From: a virus
Virus record (IMG/VR): IMGVR_UViG_3300021961_000162
Coordinates: 1-46,722 of that record
Strand: one strand, 5' to 3'
Length of the DNA: 46,722 bases
Shown: positions 1,153-32,400 of the stretch, piece by piece
How the letters are laid out: the number at the start of each line of letters is the position of its first letter
How positions within the stretch are numbered: position 1 is the stretch's first letter
Translations under genes and position numbers: made by a program
The notes under the pieces: model-generated
The model's database searches: none
What the model was told of the DNA's origin: nothing
Seen by the model: only the letters and a program-made list of their open reading frames with translations

Positions 1153-4100
1153 TCAACCCATCATCTTTTTAAGTTCCTCAACTTGTTTCTTGAGGTCTTC
1201 AATTGACTTGTTCTGTTCCTTGATTGCTTCAATCAGGACAGCGACGATATTTTGATAAGCGACAGATTTAATTCCGTCAATACCAGTTACAACGACTTCT
1301 GGAATTACTTCCTCAATCTCTTGGGCAACAACACCTATTTGACGTGGTTCACCTTCAAGATCTATTCTATTGTAGGAAACGCCTCTGAGTGCATTAACCA
1401 TTCCAAGCGCGCCCGTAATGGTCTCAACATTGCTCTTAAGTCTGATATCAGAGTTCGCGGTTACAGTACCAGTTGCAGTAAAGTTTCCACTTGTTCTAGT
1501 AAAGGTCCATCTTGTTGTTGTGTTATCTCTAATAAAGAGATTACCAACATTGAGATCCATGTAGTTGTCAGTTCCATTATGGAAGAGCTCCCAATCATCA
1601 CTAGATCCGAGTCTTAAGATATCACTATCTGCAAGATCAATTGCGGTACGAACGTTTAGAGTTCCGTTAATAGTTACGTCAGAAACGAAAGTTGGCGAGG
1701 TGGTTAGGTTGTATGCAGAACCGTTACCAATTAGGATCGCGCCCGAGGCAGGTAAACCTGTTTGTCCAGTACCACCTCTGTTGATTGGAATTGTTCCGGT
1801 GTGGTTTGCAGAATTCAGGTAGTATGCAGCATTGTTCGCGCCCAATGTTGAAGCGTCAACATCTCCTGTTAGAGAGTTCTTAAGGCTTACTGCACCATCA
1901 GTACCAATTTCAAATGTTGATGTCTTGAATTTGGAAACACCCAAGGTTGAATATAGATCAAGAGTGCTCTGAACTCTATTGAGAGTTAGATTTACATTTC
2001 CATAGTAAGTGTTAAGTCCAACACCACCAGGAGCGAAATCAACGCTTGATCCAGTTGCACCCATTGGTTGAGTTGTACCAATTCCAACTGAGAATACTGC
2101 CTTTCTGTATGCGGAAATACCAGTAAGTACCGTATCAGAGTTTGCGGAACCAGAACCAAGTCTTGAAGGTGCAACAATACCACTGATGATATTTGCAGCA
2201 TCAATATCTTGTTGTGCAAGTAGTGACCAGTTATCTGGATCAGTTGACGATGTGTTTACTGTAGCCGCGTATCTTACATTCTGTTTGGTAAATGTACAAA
2301 TGCCAGAAGTAGTTGTGGTAATCGCAACCTGGTTAAATGTAACTCCATTTGCGGAGAAAGCGGCGTCAGTTTGGGTGTTATGTAGTGTGAAGGAGTTGGT
2401 TGTTGCAGAACCAACGAAGTAGTAACCTCCAGTAGTGATTCCTGGTGGAACAACACCAGAAACTCTTACAGGATCTGCAGTCTGGAATCCGTGACCAACA
2501 AATACAACGGTATCCTTAGCCCATGATACTGCGTCTCTAATAAGAGCATGAGTACCAATACCAGAACCAGTAATATTGATCTTAGAGGCGATTGCATATG
2601 TTGGGTGCAATTCAACCGATGTAACTCCAACTCTCTTAATATAATAGGTATTATTGTTAATAAGACCAGTTACAGGAGTTCCTCCTTGTGCGCTATACTT
2701 GACTGGATCTCCATCAGAGAAAGTATTTGCTCCAATAACAACTCTACTGTTTGCAAAGTCAATACTACCCGCTGTTAGGATATCAGTTGGATCAAATTCT
2801 GCAAGTACCTGAGAACTTAACTCAGTTGAAAGTCCAACTGCGTCTCCATCTTCAACATAATCTGGTAGATCTGCGGTTCCAACAAACTTACTATTATTTG
2901 TAAGAGTTAGATACAGTCTAGTTTCAACATCGCCTACAGTTGCCTGGAAGTCTGCACCTCCAGTTCTTCCACCAATTAATCCATTTGCGACGTTAACAAT
3001 ATCACCATTTGCGTATCCCTTACCACCAGTAATCAGAGTGAACTGGGAGACGTTTCCTGATGCATTAACTGTGACCGTCGCAGTAGCACCAGCACCAACA
3101 CCACTTACGGTGGTTACAGGGACGCCAGTGTAGATTCCGGCGGAGTTATATCCCGAACCAGCATTGGTTAGAGTTGTGTTAAGCATTACGCCCTTAACCA
3201 AACCAGTAGAACCATATCCAACATATGGTTTGATGGTTGTTCCGATTCCAACTCCTTCTGGAGGAGTAGTTACAATACCAATCGCAGTACCAGTTAGAGC
3301 ACTAGTTACTTCCTGTCCATTTACAAAGTTATAATCTCTAGCTGGAGTATCAAGGATTAGATATTGCGAAACAACGTCGTTTACAAGAACGTAAGCATTT
3401 TCTGGTTCAACAACTGTATCGCCCTGTTTGATATCTTTCGCTGGGATCTGGTTAACTAAAACTGTTCTACCTGCACCAACGTTTGTTCTTGTGTAAGTAA
3501 CAACTTGTGGTGGAATGAGGTCTGCGTTAATCTGACCAGCAGAGTTAAGTTGTACAACTGCACCTGGGATAGCGTTGGTTGATACGGTCTTATCAATGAA
3601 GGTTCCCAGTCTATTAGAAAGGAAACTTCTGACAGCCAACTGGGTAGAAACTCTCTTATTCTGAGGTCCACCAAGTTCAGTATCACCCAAGTTTGTATCA
3701 GTTGAGAATTCTTCAACAGCAACACCACCAGAAAGAGTTAGTCGGATAGAATCCAGTTCTCCAATGGATACCTTGTTGTTAAAGACAATATTACCAGTTC
3801 TGTTGTATGCAGTAATCTGAGAACCAATCTTAAAGTCACCCAGTTCGTTAGTACCAGAGGCATAAACGCGACCACCGAGTTCGGAAACCTGTTCAGTTGT
3901 TACATCACCAGTACCACCGTTTTGTGGTAGTGCATTGTAGTCAGTACCAGAACCAGAGAATTCCCAAGTGTGGGAAGAAGAGTTAACAATAGATGGTCTG
4001 TGTAAGTGACATCTGTAAGCGATTGGTAGACTTCCAATACCTTGAATAACGTTTCCAGGTACTGTTGAATCAACTTTAAAGTTAATTGTATAGTATGAAC

Positions 4101-7100
4101 TGATTCCTGAAACAGCAGTAACCGCAACTCCTATCAAATTAGCACTATGGTCAGTAATAGTACCAGATCCACCATCTGCAGAGAAGTATCTTCTTACACC
4201 ACCAACCTCTTCAACAGAAACAATAAGAGATCTGGATGTTGGGTTGAATGTTAAAGCATAACCAACTGCGACTCCACCGGTTACTGACTGTGTAACTTCT
4301 TGGCCAGAATTGAATACCGCTGTACTTCCCACACCAGCGAGAATAACGCTTTGATATGCTTGGTGAGAATCAATGATTTCATTAACAACAAATTCTTGGT
4401 TGTTCTTCTGGAAGGTGTTAACTCCAACAGGAGCTGTGGTGAGATCAACGGGTTTTCTGAACGACTCGTCTTCAAATAGTTTGAATTGAGTTGCATTAAT
4501 ATATTGTACGTAGTAAATATTTCCGTTTACCAATCCATCAATAACAATTGGGGGATTTGCTCTTTCATTTCCTAGATATACAACACTATCGCCATCTGCA
4601 AATGGGTGTCCAGAAATTGTTATAATTTCAGTATCAATGTCAACAGCAGTTGATGGGTTGAAAGTACTTTCGGTAACTAGTGGTTTGAATAGGTTTGTAC
4701 TATCTGTACCATTATCAGCAAAGAATCTTAGAACATATAGATCCTGATCACTTCTTCCAACACCAATAACTCTTAGGGTCTGTAAACCACCACTTGTACC
4801 AGTATCTGCAACACGTCCTCTGTCAAATACGAATGAATTTGGACTAAATCCAGTTGCCCTCAGAGCAATGTTACCAAAGTTTGTTGCGGAGTTTGTGATG
4901 GATAGATAACCACCAGACTGGGATAGAGAACCATAACGACAGAAAATCTGGAAGCAAGAAACAACCTGTGCATAACCATCGTTAATTGTTCTCCAACCAA
5001 TACCGTCAAAGGAAATCATGGTAAAGGTTGCAGCAACCATTGACTTACCAAATTCTGGAGTTGATCCAACTACTGGATTTTCAGCCAGTAGTTGTACACC
5101 TGGAATGTTGAATGGTACTACCTTGTCACCATCAACAAGAATACCATTACCACCCAATGAAGATAGAATGGAACAGTTCTGAATGTATGGAGACTTGTTA
5201 ATTACTGGTCTGGATAGTCTTGCAGTTCCGCCCTTAGTATAATAGTGTCTGATAGAAGGAATTAGATTTCCTCTAAAGGTAAACTCATTCGTCGCCACAG
5301 CAGATACAACTTGGAAGTCAATTCTTCCATCCTGGTGGTCATCTGGGTAGTACTTAACAGTTTGAATTGTTGGTACTTTTTCAACAACAGGAACTTTCTT
5401 AGCAGTACCGCCACCAAGATATGCATGAGCAATTGTTGTTACACCAGCATTAACTGTAAATGTTGTTGTATCTGCAACATCAGTAACTCTGAAGGTGTAT
5501 CCGTAAGGACCACTTCCATCTGGGAAGATGCTTGTAGTTACACCAGCAGTAGCAGTACCACCAGAAACATAGGTGTGTGCAATTGTGGATACTCCACAAT
5601 TAATTACAATAGTATTTCCAGTTGTACCGGTAGTGCATCTGAATACATCGTATCCATAGATGGCATTTGAATTATGTAATGGTGTTGGGAAGATAGTTGT
5701 GGAAATTCCTGCATGTTCTGCAGCACAAGAGAATTCAAGTCCTCCTAACTGTACTGTAGAATCTGGATCTAATCCATGTGCAGAATCTGTTGTAATAGTA
5801 ATAATACCAACAACCTCATTGTAATCTGCAGCCGTGATGTTTACAGTTGGTCCAGTTGAATAACCATTGCAAGTAAACTGTAAAGAATCTAGAGTTACAT
5901 AATCACCGACACTTAATCCGTGTGGAGAACTTGTAAGTGCGGTTGAGAATCCAGTTTGATATGTATATTCAAAGGTAGAAATTCCAACGGATCCAAATCC
6001 ATCATAAATGTGAGCAATAGTTGAAATACCCGCATTAAATGTAAAGCTGTTTGTAGTTACTCCAGTAATTGTGAAGGTATAACCATCAACGTTGTAGGAG
6101 TTGATTGTGCCATCTGGGAACAGTGTTGTTGTTACTCCAGCATGTGCTACTGCACAAGAGAATGGAAGATCTCTCAGAGTAATCTTATCATTTACTTGAT
6201 AACCATGGTCTTCTCTAGTTACACCAGTACATACACCTGTAGATTCGGTGTATTGGAATGTACTAATTCCAAGTTTTTGCCAACCAATGTAAATATGTGG
6301 AATGGTAGTTATACCACCCTGAACGGTAATTGTTTTGGCAGCAGTGTTAACACCAATAATTGGATAAACTGCACCGTAAGTTCCAAGACCAGCATATGGG
6401 AAGATAGTAGTTGTTACCCCTGCGTGTTCTGCAGCACAAGCAAACTGGAAGTTATGTAAGAATAATTCATCTCCAATTGTATAACTTCCACCGTTATCGG
6501 TTCTATTTGGTGCAGAGCGAAGAGTGAGTGTTGAAATACCAACCACTTCATTATATCTAATAGATGAAATACCAGTTTCATCGTATCCACATGTCCAACC
6601 AAGTCCAGTAAGTCTTACACTATTTCCTGGATATAATTCGTGATCACTAGAAGTTACTACAGTACAAATTCCAGTAATTGCGTTATCATAAATTGCAGAA
6701 ACAATTCCAACTGTAGCTGTAGCAGCATATCCAGCCCTTGAGTATGATGTATCAAAAGGATCGTCAAATGCTACGGAATAATCAAATGTGTGTTGTGGAA
6801 TTTTATTGATCGGATCTACATAGTCGGTTAAAGTTAGTCCAGTAATATAGTTACCATTTCTTACCTTGAATAGGTCTTTACCTGCATTTAGAGGTCTTAC
6901 AACAACGTTTCTGAGAGATTCTGCAACAATGTTGACATTATCATATAGGATTAATGGGTTATCTTCTACATAATCCCCAGAATCTACGAGAACTGTTGCA
7001 CCAGTGTTGAAGAAGTAACCTAGGAATGATGCAATTTGACATCCTTTCTTAATGGATTGGACAGGTTGAGTTCTTCCATCATTTGCATCATCTCCAGCTT

Positions 7101-9144
7101 GTTGAGATACTCTTACAACAACCTTAGAACCACTTCCTCCTCCAGTTGCAAATCCAATGTTTCCATCACCATCAGTAGTGAGTACTTGTCCTTTTATACC
7201 ATCACCCGATGGGAATGTTAAAACACCAATAGTTGTTATTCCTGAGAATTTCGCTCTACCATATGAAGGAACATGAAGATCTTGTACAAGAGTATCATTA
7301 GAATATAGTGTATTAACACTTAGAGTTGAATCGTCTTCTTGGATTCTTTTAATATTTACAGCTTCTCCAATTGGAACTGTACCAATTCCGGTAATTGAAC
7401 TTAAACCAACAGTTACGTAATCAGCAAAAGTAGTTACTGTTGAAATTGAAACTGTTGTTCCTGGATTAATTTGCTGATTAACTGTAGATCCACTAGAAAT
7501 AAGTACGGAAGGACCGGCTACCTGAAGTACTTCAGATATAATAACTTGATCACCTGCGGTTAATGTGGTCGTAATTCCACTAAAGACCTCTACAGCAGGA
7601 TTATAATTATTAGTTAATGTACTAATTGCAACAACCGACTGTCTGATAAATGTATCTGCCGCTCCAACATTTGCAATAATAGTATCTGCAGTTGCAATAT
7701 AATCATAGTAAGTAACTCCATCAGAAGCAAAAAGTGATACGCCAATTCCAGCTGCAACAGTAACTGTAGTTGCACCGTAACCAGTAATTTGCGTCTTCGC
7801 TAATACAATTGATCCCTCATTGGTTGTTCCCGCTCCAGCGGTAACCTCAATGTAGTTACCTGTATCAACTCCGACTATACTATCAACGTAAATTACGGTG
7901 CTTCCACTAGGAACCAACTCTGCAATAGTTGTATTTCCTGTAGAGAAATAAAATGGATCAACAGCCTGAGATCCAAAAGCAGTTATACGAGCATTAGTAA
8001 ATGCTCCAGTAACGGAGAATGAATTTCCAATAGAAACTCCAGAAATACTCGTTACAGGAACAATGGTTGATCCAAGTGATACGGTGGCAGCCGCAGATAC
8101 GTTTACTAAAGCAGTATTGCTTTGAGATACAATGATGGAAGTTACTCCAACAATTGGAATGTAATTAATTCTTCCATCTCTTGTTCCACCAACAGAACTA
8201 CTCAATGAGTTACCAATGGAAACTAATGAAGTATCATCAATTGGAATAATGGTTGTATTAACTCCCGCAGTTATTGATACAACCGTTGCAGTTTTATCAT
8301 TATTTGTTGGTACAGCAACAGTTGAAAAACCTACGATTGGAGCATAAGTAATAATTCCAGCAATACTTAAGGAACTTCCAATTGAAATTGATGAAGTGTT
8401 TGCTAATCCAATATTTGAAGATCCAGCAGCTACGATAGCGCTTACTGTAGTGTTATAAACATTTTTATTCCATGCTTCTACAGCAGTACCATAACCAACT
8501 TGATTAATAGCAATATTACTGAAGAATGTGCTTACGCCAATTAAATCCCCAACAGAAACAAGAGTTACATCAGAAAGTGGGAAAATAGTTGATCCAGATG
8601 CTACCGTTCCTTGAATAGTTGCATTTAATTCATATGTGGTCGTTCCAATACCAGTTAGTGTTAGATTTCTTGCAGAAACAACATCAAGGGAAGCAATCGC
8701 TGCAGCAAGAGTGTCTGTAGTAACAACACCACCCGTTTCCGTATTGGTAAATCCTTGTTCATCAATTACAACTGGACCAATGTTAATTGTTTTTGAATCT
8801 CCATCAATAATAATTGATGATGAACCAACTGATAGGTAACCAGTAACTCTTGCAGGACCATCAACGTATAGAGCTGTGGTTCCAATTCCGACTGTTACTG
8901 TTCCGATACCATTATTAGAACCTAAAGTAGTAATTCCGGTAACAGATAAGTTGCCTGTTAGATTTAAATCTGCTTCTGATACATTGGAGAAGTCACTTCT
9001 AGCTAGACCTATTCCTCCTTGCGTTGTTCCATCATGAACAAAAACTGTCTTTTTGTCGGTATCATAGGTAAGTTCTGCGAGCGCACCAGTGAAAACCTCA
9101 TGTTGTGCAGTTGTACCCCTTCTTATCTGTACCTGTTTAGTCAT
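1153..9144 (-). CDS. Giant tail fibre with S74 self-cleaving chaperone
   Basis: A 2,663-residue fibre-like protein. Residues 1-50 resemble the Mtd N-terminal domain (VQIRRGTTAQH...FTGALAELTYDTD, then HDGTT). Residues about 60-660 are short beta repeats around VSIGNSxxVTG and GIGTT. A pectate-lyase-like right-handed helix starts near 672 (DDANDGRTQPVQS), is interrupted at about 830-1250 by FPDG modules, and resumes at about 1310 (SPYIQNCSI). Residues 2430-2550 carry NRGGTGQTG and LRLGSSDDWELFHNGT, typical of fibre ends. The last 99 residues are an S74 intramolecular chaperone: SDIRLK at 2565-2570 gives the Ser/Lys pair known from endosialidase, then a C-terminal coiled coil (NKSIEDLKKQVEELKK). 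By family knowledge it trimerises, folds the fibre and is then clipped off. A late promoter lies 34 bases upstream. Confidence 0.9.
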   Translation of the reverse strand: MTKQVQIRRGTTAQHEVFTGALAELTYDTDKKTVFVHDGTTQGGIGLARSDFSNVSEADLNLTGNLSVTGITTLGSNNGIGTVTVGIGTTALYVDGPARVTGYLSVGSSSIIIDGDSKTINIGPVVIDEQGFTNTETGGVVTTDTLAAAIASLDVVSARNLTLTGIGTTTYELNATIQGTVASGSTIFPLSDVTLVSVGDLIGVSTFFSNIAINQVGYGTAVEAWNKNVYNTTVSAIVAAGSSNIGLANTSSISIGSSLSIAGIITYAPIVGFSTVAVPTNNDKTATVVSITAGVNTTIIPIDDTSLVSIGNSLSSSVGGTRDGRINYIPIVGVTSIIVSQSNTALVNVSAAATVSLGSTIVPVTSISGVSIGNSFSVTGAFTNARITAFGSQAVDPFYFSTGNTTIAELVPSGSTVIYVDSIVGVDTGNYIEVTAGAGTTNEGSIVLAKTQITGYGATTVTVAAGIGVSLFASDGVTYYDYIATADTIIANVGAADTFIRQSVVAISTLTNNYNPAVEVFSGITTTLTAGDQVIISEVLQVAGPSVLISSGSTVNQQINPGTTVSISTVTTFADYVTVGLSSITGIGTVPIGEAVNIKRIQEDDSTLSVNTLYSNDTLVQDLHVPSYGRAKFSGITTIGVLTFPSGDGIKGQVLTTDGDGNIGFATGGGSGSKVVVRVSQQAGDDANDGRTQPVQSIKKGCQIASFLGYFFNTGATVLVDSGDYVEDNPLILYDNVNIVAESLRNVVVRPLNAGKDLFKVRNGNYITGLTLTDYVDPINKIPQHTFDYSVAFDDPFDTSYSRAGYAATATVGIVSAIYDNAITGICTVVTSSDHELYPGNSVRLTGLGWTCGYDETGISSIRYNEVVGISTLTLRSAPNRTDNGGSYTIGDELFLHNFQFACAAEHAGVTTTIFPYAGLGTYGAVYPIIGVNTAAKTITVQGGITTIPHIYIGWQKLGISTFQYTESTGVCTGVTREDHGYQVNDKITLRDLPFSCAVAHAGVTTTLFPDGTINSYNVDGYTFTITGVTTNSFTFNAGISTIAHIYDGFGSVGISTFEYTYQTGFSTALTSSPHGLSVGDYVTLDSLQFTCNGYSTGPTVNITAADYNEVVGIITITTDSAHGLDPDSTVQLGGLEFSCAAEHAGISTTIFPTPLHNSNAIYGYDVFRCTTGTTGNTIVINCGVSTIAHTYVSGGTATAGVTTSIFPDGSGPYGYTFRVTDVADTTTFTVNAGVTTIAHAYLGGGTAKKVPVVEKVPTIQTVKYYPDDHQDGRIDFQVVSAVATNEFTFRGNLIPSIRHYYTKGGTARLSRPVINKSPYIQNCSILSSLGGNGILVDGDKVVPFNIPGVQLLAENPVVGSTPEFGKSMVAATFTMISFDGIGWRTINDGYAQVVSCFQIFCRYGSLSQSGGYLSITNSATNFGNIALRATGFSPNSFVFDRGRVADTGTSGGLQTLRVIGVGRSDQDLYVLRFFADNGTDSTNLFKPLVTESTFNPSTAVDIDTEIITISGHPFADGDSVVYLGNERANPPIVIDGLVNGNIYYVQYINATQFKLFEDESFRKPVDLTTAPVGVNTFQKNNQEFVVNEIIDSHQAYQSVILAGVGSTAVFNSGQEVTQSVTGGVAVGYALTFNPTSRSLIVSVEEVGGVRRYFSADGGSGTITDHSANLIGVAVTAVSGISSYYTINFKVDSTVPGNVIQGIGSLPIAYRCHLHRPSIVNSSSHTWEFSGSGTDYNALPQNGGTGDVTTEQVSELGGRVYASGTNELGDFKIGSQITAYNRTGNIVFNNKVSIGELDSIRLTLSGGVAVEEFSTDTNLGDTELGGPQNKRVSTQLAVRSFLSNRLGTFIDKTVSTNAIPGAVVQLNSAGQINADLIPPQVVTYTRTNVGAGRTVLVNQIPAKDIKQGDTVVEPENAYVLVNDVVSQYLILDTPARDYNFVNGQEVTSALTGTAIGIVTTPPEGVGIGTTIKPYVGYGSTGLVKGVMLNTTLTNAGSGYNSAGIYTGVPVTTVSGVGAGATATVTVNASGNVSQFTLITGGKGYANGDIVNVANGLIGGRTGGADFQATVGDVETRLYLTLTNNSKFVGTADLPDYVEDGDAVGLSTELSSQVLAEFDPTDILTAGSIDFANSRVVIGANTFSDGDPVKYSAQGGTPVTGLINNNTYYIKRVGVTSVELHPTYAIASKINITGSGIGTHALIRDAVSWAKDTVVFVGHGFQTADPVRVSGVVPPGITTGGYYFVGSATTNSFTLHNTQTDAAFSANGVTFNQVAITTTTSGICTFTKQNVRYAATVNTSSTDPDNWSLLAQQDIDAANIISGIVAPSRLGSGSANSDTVLTGISAYRKAVFSVGIGTTQPMGATGSSVDFAPGGVGLNTYYGNVNLTLNRVQSTLDLYSTLGVSKFKTSTFEIGTDGAVSLKNSLTGDVDASTLGANNAAYYLNSANHTGTIPINRGGTGQTGLPASGAILIGNGSAYNLTTSPTFVSDVTINGTLNVRTAIDLADSDILRLGSSDDWELFHNGTDNYMDLNVGNLFIRDNTTTRWTFTRTSGNFTATGTVTANSDIRLKSNVETITGALGMVNALRGVSYNRIDLEGEPRQIGVVAQEIEEVIPEVVVTGIDGIKSVAYQNIVAVLIEAIKEQNKSIEDLKKQVEELKKMMG
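5390..6650 (-). repeat. FPDG repeat modules inside the tail fibre
   Basis: This part of the fibre gene encodes four to five degenerate copies of a module of about 60-90 residues: HGLxxGDxVxLxxLxFxC, then AGVTTTIFPDG, YGYTFxVxxV, and AGISTIAHxYxGG. The last copy ends in GGGTAKKVP. The stretch sits between two halves of a beta-helix domain. Nearly the same module is found in gp7 at about 29080-29840. Boundaries are approximate. Confidence 0.75.
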
Positions 9145-9177
9145 GGAACTTCTTAATGACGGTTTATCTTCTTCATT

Positions 9178-9185
9178 TATTTATA
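9178..9185 (-). promoter_or_regulatory. T4-type late promoter for the tail fibre
   Basis: The minus strand reads TATAAATA exactly, the T4 late -10 element used by RNA polymerase with gp55/gp33. It lies wholly in the 43-base gap upstream of the fibre gene, 34 bases before the ATG. Confidence 0.75.
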
Positions 9186-9187
9186 CT

Positions 9188-12100
9188 TTAAATTATGCAT
9201 ACATAGGATCTCGCAATCTGGAATGGATTGTTTGTTGTAATGCCAGATATCGTAGAATCGTAGAATATAGTACCAAGTCCAGTGTAGGTTGGTTTTCCAA
9301 TTGACTCCAAACCAGAGGAGAATGTAAACAATGTTCCAAAGGTCTGATCGTAATTCTTTGTGAGAGAATTTTCGGATATTCCAGAAGTTCTAATTCTTCC
9401 AAATCCAATTCCAACAGGAATGAATTTGACCCCAGTTGGTTCAATAACTTCTCCTGAAATTGTAATAATTCCACTTCCACTTTCTGCAGAAGTCTTTCTC
9501 TCCGCAGTCTCGCTGAGGAATACATATAGTGATACATTACCAACTCCAACATATTCATATTCACTCTCAACTCTGGTTTCTGCAGATCCATTGAGATTGA
9601 ATAGTACAGAATCTTCAATTGGATTAATGACTCTACTTTCTGCAGATCCAGAAAGCAAGGTAATAGTTCCAAATCCTGTGTAAGAAATTGGACCTTTTTC
9701 AACAACACTTCCGAATGTGAATAGAGTACCAATTCCAACATAATCTTTTGTAGTTTTGAGATCTGTTGCGTTACCGGAGAATTCAAATAGACCCGCAGTA
9801 GAATACTGGTAGAAGTCAATTTTAGCAGTTGATCCATTTCCACCAACGATAAGTTCAACCGTATTCTCTGGTGGATTAGTGGTGAAGGAAGAAACTCCGT
9901 CATCATAACGATCACAGGTATATTCTTCAGAATCACAAGTTGGATAATCTTTATCCCCAGTGATTGAAACAAATCTAATTCCGCCAAATGCTGGTATTTT
10001 TGGTTGGAATGGAGTTATTGCAGAACCAGAAATTGTTACTGTTCCAGAACCAACTTCGGAGTGGGTTAGTTGAATATCTGAAACAGATCCATAGAATGTA
10101 TAGAGAGCAGAATCTTCTACAGGTTGTGCAACAAATGCAGACTCTGCGGATCCGGAAATAGTTACATCTAAAGTAGTTTCTGGTAAATCTACCGTAAATG
10201 ACTCATATGCAGAAGTTGGTACTTCATCAAATGTTCTATTATCAATATCAAATGTAAGATCAGAACTATCAAGGGTTGTAAGAATATTTGTTTTAAATGT
10301 TCCGGATCCAGAGTAAGAATTCGTCTCTCTAAATGATATTGTCTCGGATAGTGTAATTTGACCGAATCCAACATAACTTTCGGTATTCTTCTCAACAGAA
10401 AGTGCAGTCTGAGTTGAGAGGTATATTATTCCATCGGCAGGTGATACATAAGTGAATACATCTATCTGTCTGGTAGATGCAATTCCGGAAATATTGAAGA
10501 GACCAGTTCCAACTGCAGTTGCTGGAGTGAAACTTTCCTTAGCACCAATTTCAACTCCATCAAGATCACCATTTCCAGCAGTACCGATACCAAGAATGTA
10601 AATTTTACCCTTAGCAAATATTGGTAAAACAGCTCTGGTGAACGCAAGGCCTTTATCATCATTGATTCTGATGGTTCCAATACCGGAACCAGGATCACCA
10701 ATCAGAGCATTTCTTGGATATACTGGTGAGTAGTATCTTGTAAATTCATTGGATATGGTAATTTGTCCACCAATACCACCTGTAGGAATACCGGTTGTAT
10801 TGGTACTTATCCCAGCTATTGGTACAAATCTCGTAAACGACTCCGCTACGCCATCATCAAGAACTACTGTTCCAAGACCAATATAAGAATCAGATTCGGA
10901 TTCAAGTCCGGTTCCGATTAGTTGAATTCCAGTTGTTCCAATACCAATATTCTTCTCAATACCATAATGTGGAGTATAATCAATATCAGGATGATTGAGT
11001 TCACCATAAATTGTGAAGAGTTGAGTTCCATCTGGAGTGTCTCCAGTAAACTTCTCAATCAGAGAACCAGAGAGACTTATGATACCAGAAGCTACATACG
11101 ATTCGGATTCGGATTCTAGAGCATTGTCAGATAGAATTATAGTTTCTATACCAACATAAGATCTGGCTCTTGCAATTAGAGCCGGACTTGCTACACCCTC
11201 TCTATCAAGGACAATAGTTCCAATTCCAACATAATCTTCCGTATTCTTCTCAATGGCACAACCATTAAATCTAATGTTTCCACCACGTCGGCGGCCACTT
11301 CCAAAATCATCAGTTTCACTTTCAAGAGCAGTTCCACTTATTGTTAGAGTACCACTACCGGTGTAAGAAGGAGTATAATCAATATCTGGATGTGTCAGAT
11401 CAGCAGAAATTGTTATTGTTCCGTATGGATATTCTGTAGAAACACCAGAAATTATTAATCCATAATCTTCGGACTTACCTGCAATGCCTTCATTAACAAA
11501 TCCATAATCATTAATAACACCAGTAAGTGTGTCATCAAGTTGACCATAATCAATATATGGATAGAGTATGGAACTCTCGTTATAGTTGTAAGTGGTGGAT
11601 TCATCAACAACACCGGATAATGTAGTTCTATCAGAAGCAACAAAGTCTGGAGAGAATGCAACATCTGCAGATCCACCAACAACAAGAGTACCAGAACCAT
11701 CTGGAGATGGAGTGTAATCTGTATATGATGTACCAGAAACAACAAATAGTGATGTGCCAACTTCCGAATATGTTAATATCTCTGGTTCTGTGGTTCCAGA
11801 AATTGATATAGTACCAAATGGATAAATGGTTTCTGGTACACCAAATCCAGAATCAAGAAGTCCATAGTTATCAATTCCAACATATACTTCGGAAACTAAT
11901 CCAAAGTCTTCGGATTGAGTTGAAGCAACAGATACTAAACCATAGTCATTGACTATGAAGAAGAAAATACTGGATTCACTATAATCATATGTTACCGATT
12001 CATATTTCTCACCAAATCCAAAGAGAGTTCCACTAGTATCATCAGGACTATATGTTACACGTACTATTCCACTTCCATAGATATCATAATTCTGGAATAT

Positions 12101-14584
12101 GACGCCTGCAGATCCACTTAACGTTAATTGTCCGAATGGGTAGTCGGTTTCAACGTCTTCAATTAATCCATAGGACTCAATTCCTTGAGATATTGGAGAA
12201 ATTAAATCTCCATAATCAGAAGAATCGGAATGTCCTACAGACACATCACCATAATCTTCGGTGATCAAGTATAGAATAGAATCTTCGTTGTAATCATAAG
12301 TTACAGACTCTTCAAGTTCTCCGAAGTTGAAGAGAGATCCTCCACCAACTTCGCTATATGTTGCTGGAACTATTCCACCAGATCCAGTTAACTTGATGTC
12401 TGGTACTTCTTCTGTGGAATCAAAGGTCTGATTAATTGAATCAAATGTTAGTTCTGTGGATCCAAGTTCCTTCTGATATAGTCTTGGATTGATCGGTGGA
12501 GTATATGTAATACTTTCATCACCAACTCCGGAGATTTCGGTGAGGATAGTATTTTCTGGAGTATTGAAAGAAACAATCTCCGAAGATATCTCACCAGAAA
12601 GTGTAATAGTTCCAAATGGATAGATATCTTCAGTTGTTGAAGATCCAATCAAATCACCATAATCATCGGATGGTCCATGTGGTATGGATATAAATCCATA
12701 ATCACTTGAACTTAGTACTGGATTTATTAACTGACCAAAGTCAGTGTCTCCAACTACATAAATGGAATCTTCATTATAATCATATGTTACTTTTTCTGTA
12801 ATATCTCCGAAACTGAACAATGTTCCAGAAGTATCATCTGGACTATAGACTACCTTGACTTCGGCTCCTGTTACATATCCATAGAAGTTCTTATTGATAT
12901 GTTCGGTTTCTGCAGATCCAGATACCGAGAATAAACCAAATGGATACGTTGTTGATACGATATCAAAAGTTCCATAATCAGAAATTCCTGCAACTGGTTC
13001 AGAAAGGAATCCATCATCAGCAAATTCTGTTGCTACTCCAGATACAGATCCATAATCAAGAGTTTCAAATATTATTGCAGAACTTTCATTATATGAATAT
13101 GTAACCGTTTCTTCAATATCACCGAATCCAAATAGAGATCCAGAAGTATCATCTGGACTATAGACTACCTTGACTTCGGCTCCTGTTACATATCCATAGA
13201 AGTTCTTATTAATGTATTCAACACCAGCAGAACCAGATACACCAAATAATCCAAATGGATATAGAGAACTTGTTATCTCTATTGATCCATAATCCCCAGT
13301 CTCAGTTATAAATGTACTGGTTATTAATCCATAATCTTCAGATGATGTTGGTGAAGATGAAATATCTTGATAGTCTTCAAGCTCCAATAATATTATGGAA
13401 CTTTCATTATAATCATATACAATATTTTCTACCTTTCTTTCACCAAAAGTAAACAGTGAAGCTTCATTTTCCGGTGGATTATATGAGACTCTATAACTTG
13501 CACCAGTGTTGTACGTCCTTATATCTGGCAATTCAACTACAAATGCAGATCCATTTACTACAATTGTTCCAAATGGATTTAAAGTTTCTGTAAATCTTAT
13601 ATCTCCATATGACTCTTCGCCTTGGGTTAATGGAGATATTAGAGATCCATAATCTCCAAAAGAATCTGCAGGGAAATCAATAGTACCATAAAGTTCTATA
13701 TCATATAAATTGACAGAATCAATATTATAGTCATATCCAACCCTCTCTATAGAAGAAATGGTAGTTGTTATTAGAGGAGTTTCTTCTGGAGGATTAGAAT
13801 CCGAACGAATAGTGGCAGAACCAACAAGTTTTATATTTGGTTTTGGCTCATTGGAATCAAAGGTTAAAGTTATATCATCATAAGTTATTGAATCCGAATC
13901 CATAGGATTCAGATATGTTTCATCAATTGGTGGTTCAAAGGTTACATTTTCTGCACATCCAGAATATATCTGAATAGTTGTTGCGATAATATCTTCGGAA
14001 GATATAAACGAATCTAAGGAACTTCCATTTACAGTTAAAGTTCCAAATGGATTTGTGGTCTGGAGTATCTCTGTACTTCCAAAATCGTCTGTTCCTTCTA
14101 ACGGATTTAATATAAAACCATAATCATCATATGCATCTATTGGGAACTCTGGTCCAGTAGAACCATAATCCAATATTTCATAGAATTCTGTAGAATCTAT
14201 GTTGTAATCATAGGTTACTTTTTCTATTCCTGCTCCAGAAGTGAAGACATTGAAATCTACAAGATCTTCACTGTATATTACTTGTTCGTCAGTAGCTGCT
14301 CCAGAGAAGGTAAGAACACATGTTTCCTCTGGGGTATTAAATATTACTCTTTCTACACAAATGCCGGTGAAGGAAATCTCTGGAAGATCACCAACATATT
14401 GTTTTATTACTTGTTCATTAGTTGCAGAACCATAAAGAGTTTTCGTTACATATGGTTCTTGCGCTGGATATTCATATATTACCCTTTCTAGAGCTTGACC
14501 ACTTATTGATACGTTTCCTGTGGTACTTCCTCCGCCCCAGATTTCTGGATCTGGTTGTCTGCCGCAATCGTATTGGTAAATCAT
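9188..14584 (-). CDS. Giant repeat-built virion protein (DYG/PFG repeats)
   Basis: A 1,798-residue protein made almost wholly of repeats. The first 1,150 or so residues hold about eight copies of a unit of about 105 residues: VTYDYNESS, two or three DYG motifs, YPFGxxxxSGSA, a Y.PDDTSG segment, then LFxFGxxxE. The remainder uses a shorter unit of about 35 residues (YVGxGTIxLSGSAxES). Such alternating short strands with SGS turns suggest a long beta-solenoid or fibrous shaft (inference). I know of no enzyme motif in it. The C-terminus is RSYVCII. The ATG at 14584 overlaps the stop of the 124-residue gene (ATGA), which points to coupled translation; the upstream protein carries the same repeat. 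Being next to the fibre gene, it is probably part of the adsorption apparatus. Its family is not known to me. Confidence 0.8.
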   Translation of the reverse strand: MIYQYDCGRQPDPEIWGGGSTTGNVSISGQALERVIYEYPAQEPYVTKTLYGSATNEQVIKQYVGDLPEISFTGICVERVIFNTPEETCVLTFSGAATDEQVIYSEDLVDFNVFTSGAGIEKVTYDYNIDSTEFYEILDYGSTGPEFPIDAYDDYGFILNPLEGTDDFGSTEILQTTNPFGTLTVNGSSLDSFISSEDIIATTIQIYSGCAENVTFEPPIDETYLNPMDSDSITYDDITLTFDSNEPKPNIKLVGSATIRSDSNPPEETPLITTTISSIERVGYDYNIDSVNLYDIELYGTIDFPADSFGDYGSLISPLTQGEESYGDIRFTETLNPFGTIVVNGSAFVVELPDIRTYNTGASYRVSYNPPENEASLFTFGERKVENIVYDYNESSIILLELEDYQDISSSPTSSEDYGLITSTFITETGDYGSIEITSSLYPFGLFGVSGSAGVEYINKNFYGYVTGAEVKVVYSPDDTSGSLFGFGDIEETVTYSYNESSAIIFETLDYGSVSGVATEFADDGFLSEPVAGISDYGTFDIVSTTYPFGLFSVSGSAETEHINKNFYGYVTGAEVKVVYSPDDTSGTLFSFGDITEKVTYDYNEDSIYVVGDTDFGQLINPVLSSSDYGFISIPHGPSDDYGDLIGSSTTEDIYPFGTITLSGEISSEIVSFNTPENTILTEISGVGDESITYTPPINPRLYQKELGSTELTFDSINQTFDSTEEVPDIKLTGSGGIVPATYSEVGGGSLFNFGELEESVTYDYNEDSILYLITEDYGDVSVGHSDSSDYGDLISPISQGIESYGLIEDVETDYPFGQLTLSGSAGVIFQNYDIYGSGIVRVTYSPDDTSGTLFGFGEKYESVTYDYSESSIFFFIVNDYGLVSVASTQSEDFGLVSEVYVGIDNYGLLDSGFGVPETIYPFGTISISGTTEPEILTYSEVGTSLFVVSGTSYTDYTPSPDGSGTLVVGGSADVAFSPDFVASDRTTLSGVVDESTTYNYNESSILYPYIDYGQLDDTLTGVINDYGFVNEGIAGKSEDYGLIISGVSTEYPYGTITISADLTHPDIDYTPSYTGSGTLTISGTALESETDDFGSGRRRGGNIRFNGCAIEKNTEDYVGIGTIVLDREGVASPALIARARSYVGIETIILSDNALESESESYVASGIISLSGSLIEKFTGDTPDGTQLFTIYGELNHPDIDYTPHYGIEKNIGIGTTGIQLIGTGLESESDSYIGLGTVVLDDGVAESFTRFVPIAGISTNTTGIPTGGIGGQITISNEFTRYYSPVYPRNALIGDPGSGIGTIRINDDKGLAFTRAVLPIFAKGKIYILGIGTAGNGDLDGVEIGAKESFTPATAVGTGLFNISGIASTRQIDVFTYVSPADGIIYLSTQTALSVEKNTESYVGFGQITLSETISFRETNSYSGSGTFKTNILTTLDSSDLTFDIDNRTFDEVPTSAYESFTVDLPETTLDVTISGSAESAFVAQPVEDSALYTFYGSVSDIQLTHSEVGSGTVTISGSAITPFQPKIPAFGGIRFVSITGDKDYPTCDSEEYTCDRYDDGVSSFTTNPPENTVELIVGGNGSTAKIDFYQYSTAGLFEFSGNATDLKTTKDYVGIGTLFTFGSVVEKGPISYTGFGTITLLSGSAESRVINPIEDSVLFNLNGSAETRVESEYEYVGVGNVSLYVFLSETAERKTSAESGSGIITISGEVIEPTGVKFIPVGIGFGRIRTSGISENSLTKNYDQTFGTLFTFSSGLESIGKPTYTGLGTIFYDSTISGITTNNPFQIARSYVCII
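12824..13210 (-). repeat. 72-bp exact direct repeat pair in the DYG protein
   Basis: Bases 12824-12895 and 13139-13210 are identical (72 bp), 315 bp apart, which is exactly 105 codons. They encode the same 24 residues (starting NKNFYGYVTGAEV, ending PDDTSG) in two neighbouring repeat units. Flanking sequence is clearly diverged, so this points to recent duplication or gene conversion of one segment. Confidence 0.9.
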
Positions 14585-14955
14585 AATGACCTACCTCCAC
14601 CAGATACATCTGGAATCACATTTCTAGATAAATCATTTGAAAGTTGGAAAATTATACTAAATCCAATCCATCTAAATATAACTCCTGTTAACAGAATGGA
14701 GTTATATGTTGTTTGTTTTAGTTTTTCAAGAATATTGTTCTTTTTAGTATAGATTACTTTTTTACTAGTTACTTTGATTCCACCGAAAGGAACTAAAGTT
14801 TTATTACAATCAATATAATAATTATCATCTGAGTCGGCTATATCTGAAGACAAATCCCCATAGTCATCAACCCCCAAAGAAGAGGAGGTCAACAAACCAC
14901 AATCTTCTTCGGAGTACAAATTTACAGTGGTAGAATTGTACTCGTATACTGCCAT
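14581..14955 (-). CDS. 124-residue stand-alone DYG-repeat protein
   Basis: The first 65 residues (YEYNSTTVNLYSEEDCG, DDYGDL, PFGGIKV) form one clear copy of the DYG/PFG unit that builds the next protein. The second half differs: a Lys-rich segment (KKVIYTKKNNILEKLK), a hydrophobic stretch (ILLTGVIFRWIGFSIIFQL, about residues 86-104), and the tail PDVSGGGRSL. Its TGA stop overlaps the ATG of the 1,798-residue gene, so the two are translated together. The product may be a small adaptor or cap for the large repeat protein, or the detached first repeat of a formerly longer gene; the sequence does not decide. The ATG at 14955 lies 15 bases after the T-tract of a terminator. Confidence 0.72.
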   Translation of the reverse strand: MAVYEYNSTTVNLYSEEDCGLLTSSSLGVDDYGDLSSDIADSDDNYYIDCNKTLVPFGGIKVTSKKVIYTKKNNILEKLKQTTYNSILLTGVIFRWIGFSIIFQLSNDLSRNVIPDVSGGGRSL

Positions 14956-26483: not shown

Positions 26484-29400
26484 TTACAAACCTCTTGTTC
26501 TAAAGATTTGTGGATTGGTTGAAATTCCAGTTAGTCCGCCATTATTATAAACTTCAAATGATTTTGGATCACTGAGTATTCTATTCTGGAAATCATAGAT
26601 CTTAGACCAAGAGTATCTTCCATAGAAGTTATTAGTTCCAATTCCAGTATCAGATTCACCTCTTGCATATACATTTACATAATATGGTGGAGTTGAATTT
26701 GGAGCAGGAGCAAAGTTACAAGTTACAGTAACTATTCCTAAAGATGGTGATGTTACATTTTCAACTCTATAGACTCCATCCAAGAAGGAAACTGCTGTTC
26801 CAACAACAGAAGTTGGATAATTCGTCATTCCTCCCAAAGAGGTTGTTATTCCAGTTAGAGCATGACCAACTTGAACATTACTGTCAGTAATTACAAAGTA
26901 ATCACCTTTTGAAAGTTGACTATATGTTACTCCATAATTATTGAGGGCAGAATATCCAACACCAAGGGTACTGTTATCATAAGTCTCCGATTGAAGAATA
27001 AAATCAATCTTTGGAGTGACTGTACCGAATCCAGGAGTACCAGCAATGAAGGTGTTTATTCCTATAATTGTACCAAAATCTCCTACAACTTTAAATGATA
27101 CTATTTTTTCAGTTTTTGATGGATCTGGTTCAATTAGTACCGATGGTGGATTTTCTTCAGTATATCCAAATCCACCATTAATGATGTTAATTGAAGTAAC
27201 GATGCCATTTGTTACGGAGGCCTCTGCTGTAGCTCTGTTCAATATAGGATCTGAATAAATTGCAGTTCCTGCAGAACCAACAGCCAAATACCTACCCTCA
27301 AGACCAATGTTATCTTCAAATATGATATTATTTAAAGTATTATATTGAAGTGTTTCTCTATAGATCCAATTAGAAAGATCAAAAGAATAATATAGATTTC
27401 CAGCGGAGGTTAAAATTACATAGAAGTCTTTAAAGTAGATATCAATAATATCTTCTACTACATTATTTCCTATAGATTCAAAAGAAGATGGTCCGTTAGA
27501 TCTAAGTATTACTCCACCATTACCAACAACAATAAATCTACCATCAACAGAAATAATTTTATTAAGATTTTGTGCAACTGGACTACTTAAAGATTCCCAA
27601 ACTTGATTGTTAACAGAACCCAATATTGTTCCGTTATTAGCCACTGCAACTATCTTAGTGTTGTCAGAAGTAACATCATTAATTCTTTGAAGAGTTCCAG
27701 AGAATCTACTTGTCAAAACAGTAGTTCCTATTCCAACTCCACCAAATATTGATCCGGCAGCACCAACAACTGTCCAAGTATCAAAATATGGGGAATAGTG
27801 AGCTCCAAAAAGATCACCTGTATAAGAACTTCCCACTCTATTAATAACTCCAAGACCAGGAACAATTACTTCTTCAACCAGTGACAATTGGTTCCAAGAT
27901 CCAATTGTTAAACCATATCCGATAGACTTAGTTGCTACTGCATACTCACCTACCGCCATAAAGATATTTGTTCCACCACAAGATATAGCGTTAAATCCAA
28001 TTGTTCCCGCATATCCCACATCACCATAGTACCAATCAGATCCAGTTTCACTAAATGCATAAATGGAACTTGATCCTACAGAAACAAATACATTACCATA
28101 GTCAACGGAAGACAAATCATATGCGCTAGTAAGTCCAGTAGAATAAGTCCAATTTTTTATAGGATCTTTTCTAGTAATAGCACTCTGAGAAATTGTAACT
28201 GTTGGATTATTAGTATAAGCATAACCAACACCAGAATCATTCAAAATTAATGAAGATACTGTGGAAGCACTAGAAACTACTGATGTTGATAGAGCTGGTG
28301 AAGTTTCTCTAGTCTCAGTTACTATAATGTCTCTGAGATTTTCTGTTAGAGCATCAACCTCGGTAAATATTGGGAATGCATTATCAACATAAATCTCAGT
28401 ATCACTCGTTTCTAACTTTTTGATCAATTTTGCTGAAGGTCTAATAATACTAGACAAACTAGGTCTAGCTTTGGAATATAATGATCCATTTATAACTCTA
28501 TCTTGTTTTTGTTTTCTCCATCTAAGAGGTCTGAATTTAGTCGGATCAGTATCAATACCAACACTACTATAAGTGAAAGTATCAAATTGATCAGAAGCAA
28601 CTATTTTTTTAACTACTCTTTCAAATTGTGTGGTATCCAATAAATCATTACGATTTTCAACGATTGTAATTAAATCACCTTCCTTAATTGTTTTTGGTGG
28701 TTGAATTTCTTCAACATCTAAAGAAGAACCTCTATAATAGAATATAGAACATTTTGAGTCAGCTTTTGGAGATTCTCTAAATGAAATTCTAGATCCAAAA
28801 TAAGTATAAGAATCTCCAGGAATCTGTAATATATTGTTTATATAAACAAATATATTATTTGTAATGTCTAAATCTGACCCCTGTTCTGTTCTCAAACTCA
28901 ATATCTCTTTAACGCCACTAATAGTTACGGAAAGAGTAAACTTCTTCCTAAATCCATTGAAAGAAGGCGAGATATCATCAAATTTTATAAACTGTCCAGG
29001 ATAGAATCCAGCAAACTTATCTGTTTGTACTTCTTTGACCGTAAATGTAGCAGATTCAAATCCTCTAAAACTTACTATTCCAGACTGAGTGTAGTAATGT
29101 GTTATTGTTGATCCAGCCGAAAGGAATGTAAATTCATTTGTGGATCCAATTCCAATAACTCTGAATTCATAAGCACCGTCAGTGCTTGCATCTGGGAATC
29201 TAAGAACTCTTTGTACTGTTGGAACTTTCTTAGCATATCCACCACCATTATAATAATGGACAATTGTAGAAATTCCTGCAAGGAACTCAAACTCTGTAGA
29301 ACTATTGACAGAAGTTACAGTAAATGTATATCCATATTCAGAAGTTCCATCTGGGAATATAGTTGTAGTTAAACCTGCATAAGCAGAATTACATGTAAAT

Positions 29401-32400
29401 GCCAATCCAGAAAGAGTAACTTTATCACCAACTTCAAATTGGTGATCAGATGAAGTTGTAACTGTAGATAATCCAGTAACTTGATAATATGCAAAAGTGG
29501 TAATTCCAATTTCTGGCCAACCTTCAAAGATGTGTGGAATAGTTGAAATTCCTGCATTCATAGTAAAGGTATTCAATCCAACAGAACTTAATACAGGGAA
29601 AACTTTACCATAAGATGAAGTTCCATCTGGGAATATAGTTGTAGTAACACCAGCATGTTCTGCAGCACAAGAGAATGGTAAATTAAACAAGAATACTTCA
29701 CTACTTGTTTTATTTGCATCAACATCTGTTCTTAAAAGTCCATGTGGAGAATAAGTAACAACGGTACAAATTCCAGTAACATTGTCATAAGAGAATGTTT
29801 GTATTCCAACCTCATCGTAACCACATGTAAATGCTGCACCAGATAATCTTACATTATCATTTAACTGTAAATTATGTTCGGTAAGAGTCGTTACAGTATT
29901 GACTCCAGATGTATTATCATAAACAAAATTTACAATGTCAATTATATCAGTTCTAAATCCACTATCCTTTACTAAAAGATCTGGAATATTTAAAACGTCA
30001 CCAATTTTATATCCGACTCCAGGATTATCAACTTTGAAAGATATTACACTAGATCCTTGGCCAACAACTACTGATAATTTAGCTCCATCTCCAACTCCAC
30101 TTGTTCCAGAGGTATATCCAACTCCAAGATTACTGTATCCTGTAGGAATTCCAATGACAACTGTTGGTAAAGAAGTTGAAGTGTATCCAGATCCAGGATT
30201 AACTACAGTGAATCCTGTAATTGTACCAGAAGATCCAACAGAAGCAGTAATACTTGCACCAAATCCTATTGTTGATGCTAAACTTACAGTGGGGGGAAGT
30301 CTATATCCAGAACCAATTCCTATTAGATTTACTGAAGAAATTGTACCAGAAGCGGAAACTACAGCCTCTGCAGTAGCTACAAGTGGAACAACATATCCAA
30401 ATCCGGGATCAATGTCTAAGGTGACAATCCTTCCAGCTGATGGAGTTCCACTCAAAAATCTAAGAACATTCTCAGAAGATCCATCAACAGTATAATCTTT
30501 TGAAGATTCCTGAGCGACATTATTAATTAGTATTATAGGATTGTTGTTTATTTCACTTGCATTATTAGTATCATTGTATAACGCTTTAGTAGTTTGTCCA
30601 TTTACTCTAACAGTAAACTCAGTTGCGGCAATACCAGTAAATGCAAGAGATATATCATCCAATATTACATTTCTATCATCAACATCTGTACCATCAAATT
30701 TTCTAGAAAATACTCTACCACCAAAAATTGATCCAGTTTGAAGTCCTGTTGGTCCAATTTTTCCATATGGTGGGGTTGTAAAATAGATAGTATCTCCAAT
30801 AACATTGTAATCGCCACTTAAAACGGTCGCAGAGGACCCGACAGTATGAATACCAGGTAAAGTACCCAAGGATCCCCTTTCTACCTGTAGGAGGTCTGTT
30901 GATCCAGTGGCAACGTTAGATACTCTGAGGTACTCAGAACCAATATTAATTATATCTCCAGAGGATACAGAATTTATTCCAGAAGATACCTGAACGATCG
31001 TTGTAGTAGCAGTTGAAACAGAAGACCCCAAACCTATGGATAATGACTTATTTCTGAGTTGTGTTTGAATTACGCCATCTATTGTTATAATAGTACTTGG
31101 GTTTGGATCTTTAAATTCCAAAGAATGTGTACCCGTACCCAGAGAAGTTATATCTAAGAATATTGAAGTTGATAGACCAGAAACTCTAAAATTACTATCA
31201 TTAAGTTTATAAACAAATAACGTTTCTGGTAAAATATTTGTACCCAGTTCAGTTGGCACAAAAGTAACAGTGTCCTGTGGAGTTAACCCCCCAATGTAAG
31301 TTCCGGCAATAGAAACAATAGATGTGACTGCATATCCAGATCCACCATTTACAACATCAATAATGGATATTCTGCCGTCATTATCTCTGGACACATTAAA
31401 TAATGCGCCAGAAGAATCTTCTGAAGGAACTGAAAGATAAGCATTATTAGCTTCCGTTTGTATTCCAGTAGGAGCTGTAGTTGATACAACAAAACTCAAA
31501 TCATCAGCAGGAGTAGATCCACCAAGGTAAGTTCCAGCAATAGAAACAACATCTCCAACTGAATATCCATAACCACCACTAACTAGAGAAATTGATGTGG
31601 ATAGGGGTTGTCCCGTTACAGATGCATATGTAACTAGAACATCAAAAGTGGCTCCAAAACCACCTGTAGTAGTTACTCCAATCACATCATTAAATAATTG
31701 ATTAGTAGGCCCAGCAGGAACAAGAACGGTTGAAAGTCCAGTAATTGATGTTGTCAAATAGGTTCCATATCCATTCTCAAAAACTGCGGTTCCATCAAAA
31801 CTTCCGACATTCATAAGAATGTCTCTATTTCCTGTAGTATAAGAAGTTGTTGCTATTCCTATCGGAGAACCAGATCCATAACTATAAATTAATTCTTGTC
31901 CTGTTTGGAAATTATGATTTGGTAGTATAAATGTATTTTCACTCAATGAAACTGTAGTTGATGATGAAGATACAAACTCTCTCTTGAAGAGTGGGTAACC
32001 CTTATTTTTGAGTTTGAAAGTAGATAATCCAACAACCATTCCACCTCTGCTTGTAGATGGGAATGTTATTGTAGGAACGGAAGTTGTACCAATGCCAATT
32101 ATTGTTGTAATTATTCCAACATAACTACCAATGGCAAACCAAACATCAGCACAACAATTTTCACTATAACTTGGGCTGCAGTCAGAATCAACAATAATTC
32201 TATTGTCAAAATACTGTTGAGTAGTAACAAAACCTTCCTGTACTGTGCCTCCACTAACATAACTATGAGTTATTGTAGATACTCCTGGATTAACTACAAA
32301 AGATGTTGAGTTTATAACTTCAACTTGATATGCAAATCCTTTTGGAGATAGTGGACCATTTCCATCAGGACCATTACCTAGACTTGGGAATATAGCGGTA

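Follow-up and report, generated by a model that had tools for sequence, protein, structure and literature searches.

Little is known about the host recognition proteins of marine cyanophages. The 46.7-kb virus record IMGVR_UViG_3300021961_000162 (positions 1-46,722; this whole stretch of 46,722 nucleotides is referred to below as the window) carries on its minus strand, at 9188-14955, a locus made of repeated protein units, which raises the questions of what part of the virion these units form and by what process their sequence and number change. The answer that we favour, with a probability of about 0.6, is that the pair of open reading frames (ORFs) at 9188-14955 encodes a large fibrous component of the baseplate and tail-fibre region, likely a scaffold presenting host-contacting surfaces, and that the middle of this component homogenises by recombination.

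Genomic context and family assignment

The virus of the window is a T4-like cyanomyovirus, with the gene order gp25-gp6-gp7-gp8 as in S-SSM7 and S-SCSM2R, and Synechococcus is its probable host, judging from the cultured relatives. The genes follow each other as phrog_219, phrog_2885 and phrog_438 (baseplate wedge), phrog_358, a homologue of L-shaped tail fibre assembly proteins, the virion structural protein phrog_10330, phrog_10467, the two target ORFs and a tail fibre. The target is flanked by the same gene order in S-SCSM2R and S-SSM7; in the latter phage the first genes are annotated as gp25, gp6, gp7 and gp8, and two small genes separate the target from the fibre. The fibre gene adjoining the target in the window (1153-9144, minus strand) encodes 2,663 amino acids (aa), starting with Mtd_N and ending with a Peptidase_S74 self-chaperone. 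It should also be mentioned that an unusually large protein of 4,660 aa is encoded at 26484-40466 (minus strand), with matches to baseplate wedge phrog_2885 and to several virion structural families.

Passages of PMC7029224 describe a hypervariable host recognition cluster of pelagimyophages and cyanomyophages, bounded by VrlC and gp14, in which fibre genes lie together with other structural genes. The position of this cluster is consistent with that of the target, which, judging from gene order, would lie within it; these passages cover the region, and not the family, its repeats or homogenisation.

In the PHROGs profile search, the main ORF matched a single family, phrog_11522 (E 4.7e-47, nine stretches matched), and relatives of the same architecture likewise matched it. 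The statement in the initial annotation that the family could not be recognised was thus nearly right: the family exists, but carries no assigned function. The Pfam search of the window protein returned no family at a meaningful E-value, the best being DUF3592 with E 0.28, below the cut-off, and no Pfam repeat or domain match placed it among Ig-like/Hoc, collagen-like or other described repeat proteins. A search of PDB sequences with profiles of both halves gave no match. Neither a fibre-family match nor an S74-type chaperone end, either of which would mark a gp37-like T4 adhesin, was found in the target, the S74 and fibre features belonging to the adjoining gene at 1153-9144. As to TolB/FG-GAP propellers, FG-GAP is absent from the window protein and was seen only as an insert in S-SCSM2R.

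Architecture of the locus

The main ORF (9188-14584, minus strand) encodes 1,798 aa and, in agreement with the initial annotation, consists of two repeat types. It is laid out as an N-terminal linker domain, eight modules of 66 aa (D modules) with their linkers, and a C-terminal half of beta-type repeats of about 20 aa. The range 9188-14955, previously ascribed to this protein, does hold it, but also contains a second ORF of 124 aa (14581-14955, minus strand), which overlaps the main ORF by ATGA and comprises an N-terminal D module with a cap.

D modules were located with a profile HMM of 66 residues, which was derived from the long units and then improved with the sequences of relatives. Eight were found in the main ORF (E 1e-15 or better), all on the minus strand: residues 123-188 (14021-14218), 282-347 (13544-13741), 388-453 (13226-13423), 494-558 (12911-13105), 599-664 (12593-12790), 761-826 (12107-12304), 864-931 (11792-11995) and 998-1060 (11405-11593), numbered D1 to D8. 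One more occupies residues 3-63 of the 124-aa ORF (14767-14949, minus strand). The modules open with V-T-Y-D-Y-N and close with P-F-G-x-I-x-x-S-G-S-A, and as many as three DYG marks stand in the part between these. Eight units bearing DYG and PFG marks had been proposed earlier, and their count stands; their supposed period of about 105 residues does not, because successive starts are 159, 106, 106, 105, 162, 103 and 134 residues apart, so that this period is seen in four of the seven steps, where the linker has about 40 residues. It is the 66-aa module that is constant and the linker that is variable.

The C-terminal half (residues 1061-1798; 9191-11404, minus strand) carries short repeats with consensus forms like SYxGxGTIxLSGxAxES and SAQTPExTxLFxISGSAxE. 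Their period was taken from motif spacing and autocorrelation, as an iterated short-repeat profile shrank to 15 positions; in relatives as well as in the window, the spacing of the core motif has a sharp peak at 20-21 aa and harmonics at 41 and 62, and not the 35 residues previously suggested. The conserved end of the protein (9191-9370, minus strand) is NNPFQIPRTYVVII-like in most relatives. A third small motif, similar to LTFDSxxxTFDS, occurs at residues ~230-260, 715-730 and 1445-1465, in the widest linkers and in the C-terminal half. Tandem Repeats Finder, which the initial annotation had proposed for checking the array, did not report it at this locus, because the copies are too diverged.

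AlphaFold models, calculated for single chains, had a pLDDT of 32 for three D units (16 aligned rows) and of 29 for the C-terminal half (24 rows). Poor fold prediction is common for intertwined fibres and proves nothing in itself. The product would be a long fibre component, probably beta-rich, and rich in Gly, Ser and Thr; its C-terminal half and end are conserved, and its N-terminal array varies.

Exact repeats and homogenisation of central units

Two segments of 72 bp on the minus strand, 13139-13210 in the linker after D3 (residues 459-482, NKNFYGYVTGAEVKVVYSPDDTSG) and 12824-12895 in the linker after D4 (residues 564-587), are identical at 72 of 72 bases and lie exactly one 105-residue unit apart. 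As the initial annotation had noted, their flanks differ, and the identity indeed ends precisely at these limits, extending by 0 bases on either side. Inside the tract all 24 codons are the same, third positions included; outside it, 39 of the 81 aligned residues agree, and the same codon is used for 25 of these 39. The longest exact repeat of the window gene is 72 bp, against a mean of 19.8 and a maximum of 44 in 200 synonymous-codon shuffles. Relatives (denoted by locus numbers, L) gave similar results, with longest exact repeats, followed by the maximum of their own null, of 62 and 34 bp in L003, 95 and 44 in L008, 126 and 48 in L045, 186 and 45 in L056, 123 and 41 in L057, 102 and 45 in L060, and 81 and 42 in L062; in L005, L006, L010 and L034 exact repeats did not rise above their own synonymous-shuffle null. 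The repeat of L056 (gene 8621-12301) is a perfect tandem duplication of 186 bp at gene nucleotides 1781-2152, amounting to 62 aa or about three short repeats (seven identical loci).

We also compared as DNA the 35 linkers of nine genomes, permuting genome labels for the null. The best match lay within the same genome for 16 of the 35, compared with a permutation mean of 3.2 and a maximum of 12. Nearly all of these own-genome matches concerned central units, with neighbours matching each other best, and the first and last units mostly had their best match in the counterpart from another genome. Furthermore, L013 and L014, which are 97% identical over 6.7 kb, have 11 differences within 37 nt in the second of two repeats, where copy 2 of L013 equals its copy 1 and that of L014 does not. 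This supports the overwriting of a tract of about 40 bp in L013 by the neighbouring repeat, and the tract looks like one left by conversion. Conversion was also considered for the differences of two further pairs, L025/L027 and L064/L069, and was rejected there, the clusters having no good paralogous match. The ongoing homogenisation suspected earlier is hence supported by the shuffle test, by the within-genome neighbours of central units and by the L013/L014 tract.

That the 72-bp identity is a chimera or a collapse produced by metagenome assembly seems very improbable to us. The window is a record of an uncultured virus, contigs were compared as assembled, without reads, and repeats exceeding the assembly word length can be miscopied; against this, above-null exact repeats occur in many independent assemblies, and most of the eight further genomes in the comparison show the central-unit pattern too. 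For any single case of conversion, there is a small possibility of assembly error. A constraint at the nucleotide level, such as an RNA element or a site, would account for the identity of all 72 bases with their third positions, but is largely refuted and has hardly any probability left, since L005, in its two counterparts of the segments, has 12 and 16 of 72 bases different from the window and 8 different between the two, and other genomes carry their own sequence there.

Length variation among relatives

Apparently complete ORFs of relatives range from 1,114 to 3,006 aa and from 1 to 11 D modules; L060 gives 12 hits, which are partial, and L043 and L019, with frame changes, were left out of these counts. 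The neighbouring protein has 335 aa in 59 of 62 of the same loci. The initial annotation had named a repeat number fixed across all relatives and an ancient constraint on the identical segment as what would speak against homogenisation; the range just given and the 12-16 differences per 72 bases in L005 agree with neither. In the divergent relative L060 (1287-5756) the D-module hits are paired at a distance of 25-29 aa, and the pattern repeats every ~157 aa, which is a different higher-order unit. L019 and L043 are homologues with frame changes, in which sequencing error and gene decay look alike.

At closer range the length is constant. Where upstream DNA is at least 98.9% identical the target gene has one length, with L043 and its broken frame as the exception. 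Among intact genes, L016/L047 are the most closely related pair whose lengths clearly differ (93% upstream identity; 1,295 and 1,173 aa). Equal lengths were found in the six S-CAM1 records and in the three S-CAM3 isolates, for which 7.5 kb of the gene were compared base by base and the annotated length is identical in all three. These isolate-scale comparisons, covering the cultured phages S-CAM1 and S-CAM3 and a small number of near-identical metagenome contigs, do not support the rapid change of length expected in the initial annotation, whose further suggestion of a changing surface is plausible; repeat number does vary, as expected, between lineages, but is constant in near-identical isolates. 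Since lengths are equal in near-identical isolates and contigs and differ widely between lineages, the gain or loss of units is a slower process than the rewriting of tracts.

Split N-terminus

In the window and in 14 other loci the 124-aa ORF stands by itself, and in 26 loci it forms a single ORF with the main one. Junctions at the second start were readable in 14 split genomes, the window included, and consist of ATGA or GTGA in 11, TAATG in two and TGATG in one. In the window, a Shine-Dalgarno-like GGAGG (14594-14598, minus strand) lies within the Gly codons ending the 124-aa ORF, 10-14 nt before the main ATG, and a GG-rich motif of this kind stands within glycine codons 9-14 nt before the second start at all 14 readable junctions. 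In the lineage of the window the N-terminal module would accordingly be made as a separate small protein, and the Shine-Dalgarno-like site in the last codons of its ORF may permit coupled translation of the main ORF.

Two other explanations of the split were considered and rejected. Programmed frameshifting between the ORFs is unlikely, because the stop/start overlap and the Shine-Dalgarno-like motif are constant and the second frame is already interrupted shortly upstream of the start in several loci, among them the window and L011. Sequencing error does not explain an arrangement that recurs in 14 other loci, most of them from diverged phages.

In the tree of this N-terminal domain, in which long branches are present, the split form makes one clade (97/95). 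The tree of the neighbouring 335-aa protein requires three changes for the split form, and a single change was enough in none of 200 bootstrap trees, although the starred branches alone force only one. The simplest reading would be that the gene was split once and that the split form then passed between lineages.

Inserted domains and sequence evolution

No Pfam family was matched in most relatives or in the window protein. In S-SCSM2R, on the other hand, Pfam detected five FG-GAP_2 stretches (E 4.9e-43), and Reelin_subrepeat-B was found in L010 (E 1.7e-21) and L066 (E 2.5e-15), in both cases inserted between D modules where their spacing widens. FG-GAP propellers and Reelin-type jelly rolls are frequent in ligand-binding proteins. 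These inserts are the main sign that the array may carry binding domains, and we take them as a hint in that direction.

The pair L064/L069 is 98.9% identical upstream and 95.4% identical in the target gene, with amino-acid changes mostly in the N-terminal half. Values of dN were 0.059 for the N-terminal 585 codons, 0.015 for the rest and 0.003 for the upstream gene, and dN/dS was 0.41 in the N-terminal and 0.16 in the C-terminal half, with no overall positive selection by dN/dS in this pair. In this one pair, with dN/dS below 1, the pattern would fit an outward-facing N-terminal half.

A spacer with a purely structural task in the baseplate or the fibre base, deriving its length and stiffness from the repeats, making no host contact and homogenising neutrally, is a possible alternative, if an unlikely one. 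A strongly conserved C-terminal half and end, dN/dS well under 1, the fixed length among isolates and the lack of a recognisable binding domain in the window protein all suit such a spacer, but FG-GAP and Reelin-B insertions in relatives, the apparent exchange of the N-terminal form between lineages and an N-terminal half that outpaces the upstream gene in L064/L069 speak against it. A capsid-decorating Hoc-like fibre or another head protein, which the names 'putative hoc' and 'head and packaging' given to some neighbouring cyanophage genes might suggest, is improbable with the target flanked by baseplate wedge genes and an Mtd_N/S74 tail fibre, an order that cultured phages share.

Proposed mechanism

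For the host-contacting fibrous scaffold that we favour, the following course may be envisaged. In-register recombination between neighbouring repeats, by gene conversion or unequal crossing-over and likely carried out by the phage's own T4-like recombination, would overwrite tracts in central units and, more slowly, add or remove whole units. The altered length and surface of the fibre would then change its contact with the host. Going further, and as a rather doubtful extension, the protein might be a display fibre with fixed ends, a converted centre, swappable FG-GAP or Reelin-B domains and an N-terminal module split off as a separately translated subunit and passed between lineages, acting as a standing generator of diversity in the host recognition of marine cyanophages.

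If the family does serve host recognition, its array would be a natural record of recombination, with fixed ends, a rewritten middle, inserts and an exchanged N-terminus. If true, this would explain why length and surface differ between lineages despite their constancy among isolates of one type.

Comparison with known systems

Repeat-driven variation in phage fibre genes is already known as a principle. Our search returned no literature on repeats or gene conversion in cyanophage fibres, and, as far as the literature was searched, an array with fixed ends and a rewritten centre, inserted domains and a split, exchanged N-terminus has not been described. For the long-tail-fibre adhesin gp37 of T4, duplications of small domains are mentioned in passages of PMC6365445 and PMC9603124 (Tetart et al. 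1996), and the principle shared with our locus, as far as these passages go, is that an in-frame internal duplication alters a fibre adhesin gene. No sequence relation between the two was detected, and the array of the target, in contrast, is permanent, long and homogenising. In the tail fibre of Enterococcus phage EfV12-phi1, tandem duplications of 1.8 kb arose under coevolution within one experiment (PMC6365445). The likeness here lies in in-frame tandem duplication of varying number in a phage fibre gene; the copy number of the target, however, is stable among isolates and differs between lineages, and again no sequence relation was detected.

Closest to the window protein are homologues from cultured phages, namely S-CAM1 SXBG_00232, S-SSM7_110, S-SCSM2R_111 (named 'TolB') and those of S-CAM3 and Sf-FS3, which like it belong to the phrog_11522 family and have D modules, at 24-29% identity to it. 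Named phages such as S-SSM7, S-SCSM2R, S-CAM1 and S-CAM3 make the idea testable in culture. The homologues of S-SSM7 and S-SCSM2R stand beside baseplate genes, as in the window. Unlike in the window, the N-terminal module is fused in S-SSM7 and Sf-FS3, and the S-SCSM2R homologue combines a single D module with the FG-GAP insert.
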